From contig DASYBM010000001.1 of assembly GCA_036500765.1 (NCBI GenBank), forward strand, positions 124,001 through 188,000: 64,000 nucleotides of DNA, given 5' to 3'. The stretch is from Candidatus Sulfotelmatobacter sp. Lineage in GTDB: Bacteria > Acidobacteriota > Terriglobia > Terriglobales > Acidobacteriaceae. The notes beneath the pieces were generated by a model, which saw nothing but the letters and a program-made list of their open reading frames with translations, had not been told where the DNA came from and ran no database searches. This document shows positions 52,496 through 59,029 of this stretch, one piece after another (position 1 is the stretch's first letter; each line of letters opens with the position of its first letter). A program made the position numbers and the translations under genes.

Positions 52496-52797
52496 CGCAG
52501 GAAAAGCAACCGGAGAAGATCGTCCATTGGACCGTACATTCTGACGGCTATCGGACTGACGGCTATCAGATGAAGACTACCAGCTCTTGCGGCTATTTTG
52601 CCCGGGCATCGTGACCTTAGCACGCTGCCAGCCGCAGGCAAAGTGGCGAAAGAGGCTAGGATTCCTGTTGGTTGCGTTCCGGTTGTACGGCCAGGCTTTT
52701 GAGTTACGATTTCACGAATCGCAATTGACCAACACGATTGAATGGGAGCGATCTGCCGAGTGACATTCGCGGGCGCCATAATGGAAGACTGGATTTC

Positions 52798-54003
52798 ATG
52801 AATTGTTCGCTGTGTGGAGAAGTTTGCCGCTGCCCTTTGGAGTCACTTCCCTTGGCATCGTTGCCGAGCGGTCCCGAGTCCGAGTCTGGCCTCGGGTTGC
52901 AGGCGGGGGCCGACCTCTACCCCACGAATCCGGCAACTGAGGAAACGAATGCTACCGCGGATCGGTTCCCCGAATCTGCTTCGCCCGAGGCCACTGAGAA
53001 AGAAGATGTGGACGCCTGGCGTGACGAACTGTCCGCCCGCCTCAACCGCTACCGCGCGCGCCGTAAAGTGCGTCCGCCGCGTTACCCTTCGCTGCGGTTG
53101 CCGTTTGAGGGGCCGGCCTTGCCGACCGCGGCCAGCGCGCTCAGCGCTTCGTCGCAACGCCGGGAGTTCGAGCCTGTCTCCGACCATGCCCTCGCACTCG
53201 ATGGGATGAGGTCCGTGCCATCGGTCACCGCGAAGCCAAAAGCGGCGGCGGATGTCGAAACCCAATTCTTGACTGCTCAGGCGCATGGCGAGCAGGCTTC
53301 CCTTCCCCGCTCCTCTGCGGCGCCGGGCGCAGCGGTTCATGGAGGCGCGAAGATTATCGAGTTTCCCGGACTTGCCTGGGGACGACATTCGTGGGGACCG
53401 CCTGCGCTTCCCTCGGATCAATTGGCCGAACCGGTCAGCGAGCGTCCGCGAATCCTTGATGTCCCCGAGATCGCTCCTCCGCCTCCTGCTCTGGGCGGGA
53501 TTACCATCGACGCCGTCGAGCCCCCTGAGGCCGAAAGGCGGCCCGGCATCGACATTCCGTTACAGAGTGCGGCGCTCAGCTTACGCTTCCTGGCCGCTTT
53601 GGTTGACGGAACGATCATCGCGATGGCCGCCGCACTCTTCGGCTTCATCTTCTGGAAGGTCACGGCGGTTCGACCGCCATTGTTTCAGATTCTCGGGCTC
53701 GCTGGCGGAGTGGTCTGCGTATTCTGGGCGGCCTACCAGTATCTGCTGATTGTTTATGCGGGCAATACTCCCGGGTTGCGCGTCGCTGGCCTTGAACTCA
53801 CTCGCTTCGATGGCACCGCCACCGGCCGCTCGCTGCGCCGCTGGCGGATGCTGGCATCGTATCTTTCGGCGGCTTCACTGGGTATGGGCTATGCCTGGCT
53901 TTTTCTCGACGAAGATTCCCTGTGCTGGCACGACCGCATCACCCATACTTACCTGGCGCCGAAGAAGGGTTCGACAGCAGCGTCAGGGCCGTCCTTCGAT
54001 TGA
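52798..54003 (+). CDS. RDD-family membrane protein with N-terminal cysteine cluster
   Basis: About 401 residues. The ATG at 52798 opens MNCSLCGEVCRCPLESLPL with four Cys at 3, 6, 10 and 12, an arrangement that could bind zinc, followed by a long low-complexity and Pro-rich region. The RDD domain is at the C-terminus: LSLRFLAALVDGTIIAMAAA (RDD pattern), LGLAGGVVCVFWAAYQYLL, NTPGLRVAGLELTRFDGTA and WLFLDEDSLCWHDRITHTYL. RDD proteins are membrane proteins of mostly unknown function. The in-frame ATG at 52738 is less likely. Confidence 0.82.
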   Translation: MNCSLCGEVCRCPLESLPLASLPSGPESESGLGLQAGADLYPTNPATEETNATADRFPESASPEATEKEDVDAWRDELSARLNRYRARRKVRPPRYPSLRLPFEGPALPTAASALSASSQRREFEPVSDHALALDGMRSVPSVTAKPKAAADVETQFLTAQAHGEQASLPRSSAAPGAAVHGGAKIIEFPGLAWGRHSWGPPALPSDQLAEPVSERPRILDVPEIAPPPPALGGITIDAVEPPEAERRPGIDIPLQSAALSLRFLAALVDGTIIAMAAALFGFIFWKVTAVRPPLFQILGLAGGVVCVFWAAYQYLLIVYAGNTPGLRVAGLELTRFDGTATGRSLRRWRMLASYLSAASLGMGYAWLFLDEDSLCWHDRITHTYLAPKKGSTAASGPSFD

Positions 54004-55986: not shown

Positions 55987-58245
55987 ATGGCCACGTCCCC
56001 CGGGGGTACAAAACCGGTAGTCAAGGTCTTCGTCGCCACTTCGGTGATGCTGACCTTCATCTCGTTCTGGCGCGCCTCCGCCATCGTTTTGTCGGATCTC
56101 GCTTCGTCGGCGTATTACGCCGGAGGCGACGCCGAGAAAGTCATCGGCAAGAGCGCTCCCTGGTTCATCCTGGCGGTCATGCTGTTCAGCTATGCCGTTC
56201 GGGCGCTCTACATCGAATCCAGCAGCATGTTCGTACGGGGCGGCGTTTACCGCGTGGTCAAAGAGGCGATGGGGGGAACGCTCGCCAAGTTCTCGGTCTC
56301 GGCCCTGCTCTTCGACTACGTTCTTACCGGTCCTATCAGCGCTGTCGTGGCAGGCCAGTATCTCGCCGGATTCATCGAAGATCTCGCCCGTTCCATGGGC
56401 CATCCTATCGCTCACTTTCCGGAAAACACTTTCGCCGCCTGCTTCGGGGCGGTGGTGGCAATCTATTTTTGGCGGAAAAATACGCAGGGCATTCACGAGT
56501 CGAGCCAGAAGGCCGTGCAGATAATGATCATCACAACAGTCATGGTTGTGATCTTGATCATCTGGTGTACCATCACCGTGCTGAAGGTTCCGGTACAGCT
56601 CCCGCCAAGCCCCTTCACTCCGGGAGTTGTTCCGCTGAACAAGGAGTCACTGGGCTGGCTCGATAATACCTGGATCACCCATCTGAGATCGGGATCGGCG
56701 CTGCTCACATTCCTGATTGTTTTTGTCGGGTTTGGCCATTCTGTGCTGGCCATGAGCGGTGAGGAGACTCTGGCGCAAGTCAACCGCGAGATCGCCCATC
56801 CCAAGCTGAAGAATTTGGAGAAGACTGGCCTGGTAATTTTTGTCTATAGCCTGCTCTTCACCTCACTAGTATCCTTCTTCGCCGTGATGATCATCCCCGA
56901 CAATATTCGTCACGAATATTTCGGAAACTTGATTGGAGGGATTTCGGTATTCCTGGTTGGCCCGGAGTGGGCCAAGCTCATTTTCCATGGTTTTGTGGTA
57001 CTCGTCGGCGTCCTGATTTTGGCGGGGGCGCAGAACACATCCATCGTGGGGGCAAACGGAGTTCTGAACCGCGTGTCGGAAGACGGCGTCCTCACCTCCG
57101 CCTTTCAGAAACCGCATCCCCGGTTTGGCACGAGCTACCGCATCATCAACATGATTGTCGGCCTGCAATTGTTGACCATCATCTTGACGCGCGGAAACGT
57201 CTTCACTCTGGCCGGTCTTTACGCCTTCGGCGTGATTTGGAGCTTTGCCATGATGTCGCTGGCGGTCCTCGTGCTCCGTCATAAGGAACCCGGAGGCCGG
57301 CTGTGGAAGGTACCGGGAAACTTTCACATCGGCCAGCGCGAAATACCGGTGGGAGTCATCCTCGTTTCCGCCGTGTTGTTCACCACCGCGATCGTGAACC
57401 TGTTGACCAAGCGTGAGGCGACGATTGGAGGCGTGGCATTTAGCGCTCTGTTCTTTGTTCTTTTCACCTATTCCGAGCGGCGCGTAGCCCGCGAACGCCA
57501 GGGAAAGCCGGAGAGTGTCGACCAGTTCCGTGTCTACGGCAATCAGGAACTGGGAAGCGGAGCGATGGGAGTGCGGCCGGGCAACGTCCTGGTCGCGGTG
57601 CGCGACCCGCGCAATCTGTACTATTTGCGTCACGTACTCAGCCATACCAATACAGCCAAGCAGGACGTCGTCGTTATGAGTGCACGCCTGTATCATCGCG
57701 AGCACACGTTTGGCAGCAGCACGGTGATGGAGGCGAGCCAGGTGTTCGACCACTACGAGCAGGAGTTGTTTACTGCGGCTGTCGCCGTTGCCGAGAAAGA
57801 AGGCAAACCCATTTCGCTGTTGGTGGTGCCCGCCACCGATGTGTTCGAGGCCATCATGGTGACGGCGCAGCGACTCGATTCCAGCCGTGTGATTTGCGGG
57901 CTTTCCAACAAGCTCACCGCCGATGAGCAAGCCAAACTCACCGGCGATGCCTGGGAGCGCCTGCCGGAGCCGCGGCCGCGGCTTACGTTGGAAGTGTGCG
58001 CGCCCGACGGAAGCGTTCGCGAATATTCGTTGGGACCGCACACTCCGCGCATGCGTCCGCAGGATGTCGACCTGATGCACCAGCTCTGGCTCAACATCAC
58101 CGCCGACCCGAAATTTGCCGGCGCGCATCACTATCACATCGTGGCTTTGGCGCTGGAAGAATTGCAGCGGGAGTTAAGCACCGAGCAGCGGGCACAACTT
58201 CTGCAAAAGCTGCACGACGAAATGAACCGTTCAAGCCAGAATTAG
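55987..58245 (+). CDS. APC-superfamily amino-acid permease with large C-terminal soluble domain
   Basis: 752 residues. The first ~490 contain about twelve membrane helices with an APC start (FVATSVMLTFISFWRASAIV, SSAYYAGGDAEKVIGKSAPW, VRGGVYRVVKEAMGG). Helix 6-8 region includes VGFGHSVLAMSGEETLAQVN, the usual unwound segment. From about 520 a soluble, universal-stress-like domain follows (GNVLVAVRDPRNLYYLRHVL, VVVMSARLYHREHTFG, LLVVPATDVFEAIMVTAQ). Substrate is unknown; the C-domain suggests regulation. Precedes the candidate selenoprotein by 22 bases. Confidence 0.88.
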   Translation: MATSPGGTKPVVKVFVATSVMLTFISFWRASAIVLSDLASSAYYAGGDAEKVIGKSAPWFILAVMLFSYAVRALYIESSSMFVRGGVYRVVKEAMGGTLAKFSVSALLFDYVLTGPISAVVAGQYLAGFIEDLARSMGHPIAHFPENTFAACFGAVVAIYFWRKNTQGIHESSQKAVQIMIITTVMVVILIIWCTITVLKVPVQLPPSPFTPGVVPLNKESLGWLDNTWITHLRSGSALLTFLIVFVGFGHSVLAMSGEETLAQVNREIAHPKLKNLEKTGLVIFVYSLLFTSLVSFFAVMIIPDNIRHEYFGNLIGGISVFLVGPEWAKLIFHGFVVLVGVLILAGAQNTSIVGANGVLNRVSEDGVLTSAFQKPHPRFGTSYRIINMIVGLQLLTIILTRGNVFTLAGLYAFGVIWSFAMMSLAVLVLRHKEPGGRLWKVPGNFHIGQREIPVGVILVSAVLFTTAIVNLLTKREATIGGVAFSALFFVLFTYSERRVARERQGKPESVDQFRVYGNQELGSGAMGVRPGNVLVAVRDPRNLYYLRHVLSHTNTAKQDVVVMSARLYHREHTFGSSTVMEASQVFDHYEQELFTAAVAVAEKEGKPISLLVVPATDVFEAIMVTAQRLDSSRVICGLSNKLTADEQAKLTGDAWERLPEPRPRLTLEVCAPDGSVREYSLGPHTPRMRPQDVDLMHQLWLNITADPKFAGAHHYHIVALALEELQRELSTEQRAQLLQKLHDEMNRSSQN

Positions 58246-58267
58246 ACTGCCTCCGAAAGGAGATCTT

Positions 58268-58864
58268 ATGGCGCGTATTCCCGGCGCTCCGCGCAATCAG
58301 GGCGGCCTGCTTCGGCGGCTGTTTGTGAGCATCGTCTACTGGTCGACTAAACGCAGACTGGGCCGCGTCATCATGCCCATCCGGGTGACCGCGCATCATG
58401 CCAAAATCTTCTGGGGATATATCCAGATGGAGCAGTCGCAGATGGGCAGCAGGCTGGTCGACCATAAGCTGAAGGGACTGGCCGAGCTGCGTGTCGCAAC
58501 GCTGGTCGGATGCCCGTTTTGAATCGACATCGGTTCTGCCGTGAGCAGAGCGAGCGGCATCTCGACTGAACAAATTGCGAATCTGAACAACTATCGGACA
58601 GATTTCAATTTCTCGGACCTGGAGAAATTAGTTCTGGAGTATGCCGATGGTATGACTCAAGTTCCAGTGGAAGTTTCCGAGGCCCTGTTTGCCCGATTGC
58701 GCGAGCAATTCGGCGATGCGCAGTTGGTGGAACTCACATCGGCGATCGCGTGGGAGAACTATCGCGCGCGCTTTTCGCACGCTCTTGGAATTGAGGGAGA
58801 GAATTTTGCCGAGGGCGCGGTCTGCGCGCTGCCCGTACGAACAGCAAACGCAGCGTCACCGTAG
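58268..58864 (+). CDS. carboxymuconolactone decarboxylase / AhpD-like protein, candidate selenoprotein (in-frame TGA)
   Basis: Read through the TGA at 58520-58522, this is one CMD-family protein of 198 residues with Cys82-Pro-Phe-U85. The part before the TGA ends LKGLAELRVATLVGCPF and the part after reads IDIGSAVSRASGISTEQI, continuing without a frame change to SDLEKLVLEYADGMTQVPVE and IAWENYRARFSHALGIEGE, the usual CMD second half. In most relatives position 85 is Cys, so the redox pair is CxxC and here CxxU. AAGGAG precedes the ATG at 58268; no ribosome site precedes the GTG at 58541 where the second half could otherwise start. A SECIS-like hairpin follows the TGA. It could instead be a nonsense mutation, but the fit makes selenocysteine more likely. 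selABC are not in the window. Confidence 0.75.
58520..58565 (+). promoter_or_regulatory. bacterial SECIS-like hairpin directly after the in-frame TGA
   Basis: GTTCTGC (58533-58539) pairs with GCAGAGC (58545-58551): seven pairs, one of them U-G, around the five-base loop CGTGA (58540-58544). The loop starts 17 bases after the TGA and its second base is G; bacterial SECIS elements have the loop some 16-37 bases from the UGA with a G among its first two bases, from family knowledge. TCGA at 58524-58527 can pair with TCGA at 58562-58565 to extend the stem. Confidence 0.65.
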
Positions 58865-59029
58865 CGCCGGAGTCCCGCCGGCTGTCGCGAGAGCATCTTG
58901 CTCTCGCAGCCGGGAGCGCACGGAGTTGAGGTCTTGCCTCGAATCGCTGGGAATCAACAGACATTCTGAAACGGGTATGGGTGTGCGGGCGGGACGCCTG
59001 CACGACAGCCGCCGGGACGGCGGCGCTAC
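58861..59029. repeat. 169-bp element with 27-base terminal inverted repeats
   Basis: The two ends (58861-58887 and 59003-59029) are inverted copies with 24 of 27 matches, beginning GTAGCGCCG. The TAG stop of the preceding CMD gene is the first part of the left end. Within is GAGAGCA-TC-TTGCTCTC. The right end is nine bases from the stop of the next gene, which is convergent. No coding capacity; probably MITE-like. Confidence 0.8.

Follow-up and report, generated by a model that had tools for sequence, protein, structure and literature searches.

Within a 64,000-nucleotide stretch of Candidatus Sulfotelmatobacter sp. DNA (assembly GCA_036500765.1, contig DASYBM010000001.1, positions 124,001 to 188,000; hereafter the window), a CMD/AhpD-like gene on the forward strand (58268–58864) is interrupted by an in-frame TGA at 58520–58522, which could represent a codon for selenocysteine (Sec) or a lesion in a broken gene. 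An original prediction, made from the window alone, had proposed that this was a functional selenocysteine enzyme. We conclude, with a probability of about 95%, that the product of this gene is a redox selenoprotein of AhpD fold in which Sec85 would be inserted via SelB and a hairpin, giving the redox pair C82-P-F-U85. The sequence supports this reading by a conserved UGA, a conserved and covarying hairpin, a full set of Sec machinery genes, selection on both halves of the gene and, by prediction, an AhpD-like fold.

Conservation of the in-frame UGA

The frame runs from an ATG at 58268, with an AAGGAG ribosome-binding site (58257–58262) 5 bases upstream, to a TAG at 58862–58864, and the TGA is its single interruption; read through, it would give a protein of 198 amino acids, a gene structure that the orthologues support. 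The first half ends in LVGCPF and the second starts with IDIGSAV, which places the TGA at the second position of a CxxC motif whose first residue, Cys82 (58511–58513), is invariant in 36/36 aligned rows. The read-through protein reaches 26.2 bits against Pfam CMD (PF02627; gathering score 23), and neither half alone reaches the gathering score. Four in-frame ATG, GTG or TTG codons between 58523 and 58700 could serve as restarts, and none has AGGA, GGAG, GAGG or AAGG 4 to 15 bases upstream. The original prediction had described a TGA at the second CxxC residue of a CMD frame, with both halves in one frame and the second without a ribosome site, and it was right on each point.

A full orthologue (>300 bits) was found in 13 of 101 related genomes, each copy with one TGA, and all 13, the window's own genome counted, belong to the same-genus set of 45; the closing TAG is also visible in 3 of the 13. 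We read the site codon in 55 loci (L020–L074, L020 being the window gene itself), made up of the 30 best of a related-genome search that had many weaker matches beyond these and all 25 loci from a scan of GTDB contigs. The codon was TGA in 49, Cys (TGC or TGT) in 5 and GAA in 1 (L038). Seven loci (L050–L055 and L057) repeat genomes already represented, and neither the 42 distinct sequences nor the tree described below includes them; without them, TGA occupies the site in 42 of 48 loci. One peptide pattern of the GTDB scan had Cys at the site, if anything favouring Cys relatives; TGA was nevertheless present in 23 of its 25 loci, whose record labels comprise Acidobacteria and several of its subgroups, Planctomycetota, Gemmataceae, Deltaproteobacteria, Neomarinimicrobiota, Gemmatimonadetes and Gammaproteobacteria. 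In 58 of a further 396 genomes from the phylum, a match had an E-value of 1e-25 or lower, and the 13 best rows of this draw (at least 161.7 bits, own gene included) had TGA in 12 and none in one. Eleven loci (L082–L092), several from sister branches, carried TGA in 10 cases and TGC in one. These comparisons show a UGA that is conserved across several phyla and evidently read as selenocysteine. The homologues share one codon position rather than carrying varied stops elsewhere, and the exception, L038 (G006:C127:18224-18639), is a decayed copy from the same genus with two in-frame TAG codons, the site lost and the motif scrambled; its host genome has selB over the cut-off.

Selection was compared on the two sides of the UGA using the proportions of nonsynonymous (pN) and synonymous (pS) differences. 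After the UGA, the window gene differed from 12 same-genus orthologues with a pN of 0.10–0.17 and a pS of 0.57–0.86, and from L056 with a pN of 0.24 and a pS of 0.67; pN/pS was equally low before and after the TGA. In a tree of 45 rows (L036, L038 and L071 left out besides the seven repeats), Sec and Cys rows are intermixed, with 5 changes of which at least 4 are forced. The direction of change is unsure because the Cys row L069, placed inside the Sec group, sits on a long branch (0.91).

The hairpin downstream of the UGA

The UGA is followed by a hairpin, GTTCTGC-CGTGA-GCAGAGC (58533–58551), of 7 bp including one G-U pair, with the loop CGUGA at 58540–58544. Its stem starts 10 nt and its loop 17 nt after the TGA; the predicted 7-bp stem and CGTGA loop therefore stand, and the predicted stem start at 17 bases does not, that distance being the one to the loop. 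The model of the bacterial selenocysteine insertion sequence (bSECIS), as given in the accessible part of PMC13188914, has a loop of 3–9 nt with G in the first two loop positions, a stem of 4–16 bp, a UGA-to-loop distance of 16–37 nt and a minimum free energy of at most −7.5. With its CGUGA loop, 7-bp stem, 17-nt distance and −8.4 kcal/mol for the 19-nt hairpin alone, the element lies within these limits, bearing out the claim that its range and loop G are those expected of a bacterial SECIS.

The single sequence does not establish the hairpin, because the 61-nt stretch alone folds into a different lowest-energy structure (z = −0.62) and 2–3% of codon-preserving shuffles of the window sequence make the same stem. 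It is comparison across relatives that shows the hairpin to be more than chance. We used 37 distinct sequences with F two residues after the first Cys (C+2), leaving out five CxY-type sequences. The 5-bp core of the hairpin is present in 36 of the 37, against a mean of 1.66 and a maximum of 7 in 2000 codon-preserving shuffles, which take the sequences as independent. Wherever the stem has an Arg (34 sequences), its codon is AGA or AGG; in the rest of these genes, 44 of 529 Arg codons are of this kind. In the alignment, 87.5% of cells pair (slid versions, 36–48%), and four of the eight pairs change on both sides, which none of 500 shuffles reached. The core is absent in this register from all five Cys relatives; three of these (L042, L046 and L048) are CxY-type, a group whose hairpin sits about two bases further on, i.e., in another register than the one scored.

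Besides the alternative fold, several results count against the hairpin. One sequence (L039) breaks the core, the number of further pair types was not above that of the shuffles (71/500 as high), the Cys relative L048 keeps five neighbouring pairs in this register, and an Rfam search of 58000–59000 at E up to 1 gave no match. When the UGA and the hairpin were built into a covariance model, it matched only this gene in its own genome, and therefore does not recover the other Sec genes.

Selenocysteine machinery, proposed reaction and alternatives

According to the original prediction, the gene would be merely broken if its host lacked the selenocysteine machinery. All four genes occur in the window's own genome, which is 99.3% complete and comprises 17 contigs: selB (348 bits with parts joined), selA (531 bits, joined) and selD (366 bits) are over their NCBIfam cut-offs, and selC (64.8 bits) is over its Rfam cut-off and called SeC, anticodon tca, by ARAGORN. 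The ARAGORN call matters because a second selC-model match in the same genome (47.1 bits, just over the cut-off) was called tRNA-Ser and 5 of 14 control genomes also pass the cut-off. The genome also has a UGA within three more genes from known Sec families, namely selD, whose UGA is likewise followed by a hairpin, and two formate dehydrogenases with the Sec sites QARVU-HGP and QARIU-HSS. The latter are Sec-type alpha genes (G000:C2:27058-30297 and G000:C4:79307-82351) with one in-frame TGA each and a QAR[VI]UH motif. Among the relatives, selB is over the cut-off in 88 of 101, including 13/13 with a full orthologue, and it was found in 16/16 genomes of further TGA loci tested (L056, L058–L068 and L070–L073). 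Two genomes with Cys copies, that of L074 and G060, are without selB over the cut-off, and none of the five relatives at least 99% complete that lack it by this measure (G051, G055, G060, G078 and G086) has a TGA-split match. With both selB and selC in the genome and the UGA conserved, the proposal of a functional selenocysteine enzyme is supported at the level of sequence.

Several observations weigh against this conclusion. The gene is patchy, with a full orthologue in only 13 of the 45 same-genus genomes and a decayed copy in G006. Since selB is present in 88/101 relatives, co-occurrence inside the class weighs little. The presence of selB in two Cys-copy genomes (that of L069 and that of G436) is a further point, as are TGA-split matches in two incomplete genomes without selB over the cut-off, G074 (54% complete) and, weakly, G072 (73% complete).

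In the mechanism we propose, SelB with Sec-tRNA(UCA) would bind the hairpin just 3' of the UGA, and selenocysteine would be put in at position 85 to form the C82-P-F-U85 pair in what is predicted to be a helical AhpD-type fold. The substrate attacked by the U85 selenolate would be oxidised or electrophilic and would most likely be a peroxide; C82 would resolve U85 as a selenylsulfide, and either an outside thiol reductant or C186 (58823–58825), a third redox-capable residue kept in 31/36 rows, would restore the enzyme. Because neutral pH is enough to ionise a selenol, a Sec enzyme may dispense with the Glu/His relay of AhpD.

That relay, in the accessible part of the account of PA0269 (PMC3141380), consists of Glu36, Cys48, Tyr50, Cys51 and His55; compared with PA0269 (2o4d, 2ijc, 7xw1) and Mycobacterium tuberculosis AhpD, the window protein has G70, C82, F84, U85 and G89. 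The Cys-X-X-Cys pair of AhpD-like peroxidases is thus retained as Cys-X-X-Sec, whereas the Glu, Tyr/His and His positions hold G70, F84 and G89. Of the 44 Sec loci with F at C+2, 37 have neither the relay acid nor the His; once repeats are removed, this holds for 30 of 37. The Cys relatives L069, L074 and L084 are also without the relay His, and Glu, Tyr and His are all retained in 5/5 Sec relatives of the CxY type, so that the relay was not simply traded for Sec.

A tentative extension of our reading is that these proteins form a separate class of AhpD-fold selenoenzyme, in which the low pKa of Sec replaces the relay, Cys186 takes part in the cycle and the substrate is perhaps not a peroxide, as in a Bmp8-like dehalogenation. 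Less likely still is a Sec enzyme that is no peroxidase and reduces other electrophiles, for example as a reductive dehalogenase; the debrominase Bmp8 (6ohi, 6ohj) shares 13% identity with the window protein. Read-through of the UGA by another route, such as insertion of Trp or leaky termination, draws on the fact that Sec in the protein is deduced from nucleotide data, but it is very improbable: an RDD-family gene in the window (52738–54003) stops at TGA, five intact non-TGA homologues have Cys and not Trp at the site, and four Sec genes accompany a covarying SECIS-type hairpin. Insertion of Trp was rejected on these grounds. A pseudogene created by nonsense mutation or sequencing error, for which decayed copies such as L038 offer a precedent, is scarcely credible and was likewise rejected, given the same TGA in 49/55 loci, in many assemblies and across phyla, the low pN/pS after it and a hairpin retained beyond codon constraint. 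The reading as two separate genes, which is how standard-code gene calling splits the locus, was rejected as well.

Comparison with other AhpD-like proteins

Upstream of the selenoprotein gene, an amino acid permease gene (55987–58245, forward strand; PF13520, 166.5 bits) ends 22 nt before its ATG, and the two may be co-transcribed. The permease gene adjoins it in 4 of the 25 GTDB-scan loci, close relatives only, and no neighbour within the 3-kb flanks of these loci was common beyond close relatives (open reading frames inside or antisense to the gene excepted).

The window's own genome has a second AhpD-like gene (G000:C9:282562-282975; L126, L017) tail-to-tail with selB, an arrangement seen in at least 31 of the 101 related genomes, at a distance of up to 300 bases in 30 of them and of 906 in the other. 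Seven such genes were read (L120–L126), six of them picked for a listed TGA: the site is TGC in three same-genus genomes, including the window's own, and TGA in four genomes from other genera, where a hairpin-like CTTC-GTC-GAAG comes after it. In two further genera (G052 and G053), the search-matched part contains no stop. A separate AhpD-like branch with the motif C-x-Y-U-x3-H (L043, L044, L045, L047 and L049) has TGA at the site and a hairpin of its own, shifted about two bases downstream; G060, without selB over the cut-off, has TGT at the site of this branch.

Standard-code gene calling would miss the enzyme here and in relatives from other phyla. The copies with Sec, those with Cys and the decayed ones, in genomes that do or do not have selB, form a natural set in which to test why an enzyme keeps selenium, and the protein offers an AhpD-fold case in which Sec occurs together with an additional third Cys and the proton relay is absent.

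A 2005 list from the Sargasso Sea (PMC1088965) contains CxxU selenoproteins of the AhpD-like and CMD-domain kinds; AhpD-like ones appeared again in 2006 (PMC1794560), "AhpD-like 1" and "AhpD-like 2" (the latter pfam02627) in 2008 from GOS (PMC2398784), and AhpD-like and CMD-like ones in reviews of 2020, 2022 and 2026 (PMC7435645, PMC9312934, PMC13188914), so the original statement that Sec in this motif had been reported is borne out by the accessible parts of PMC1088965, PMC2398784 and PMC13188914. Our literature search, covering the accessible parts of the papers, found none tied to this branch, which the AhpD-like/CMD surveys may contain; a prediction paper from 2025 that has one acidobacterial genome as a test case (PMC12013277) mentions neither AhpD nor CMD in its accessible main text. 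The best NCBIfam model, NF053654 ("YciW-related (seleno)protein"), aligns to residues 1–177 with 125.1 bits, well short of the 310 that its cut-off requires. Each of the 36 aligned rows matches this model with an E-value of 0.001 or lower; one of these rows, L040, shares 34% identity with the window protein and has GCVFUQDIN without the C-terminal Cys. The peroxidase-related model TIGR01926 gives 30.4 bits (cut-off 81.8), and the protein is under the cut-off for all nine models among the matches listed. Unlike the window protein, the selenoproteins of the surveys are described, in their accessible text, with no mention of relay loss or a C-terminal Cys. By its sequence, the window protein is a member, reaching no listed NCBIfam cut-off, of a kind of selenoprotein already known, and it shares with those in the accessible parts of PMC1088965, PMC2398784 and PMC13188914 the CMD family, the CxxU motif, Cys homologues and, in the case of the AhpD-like ones, a SECIS after the UGA, shown in a figure.
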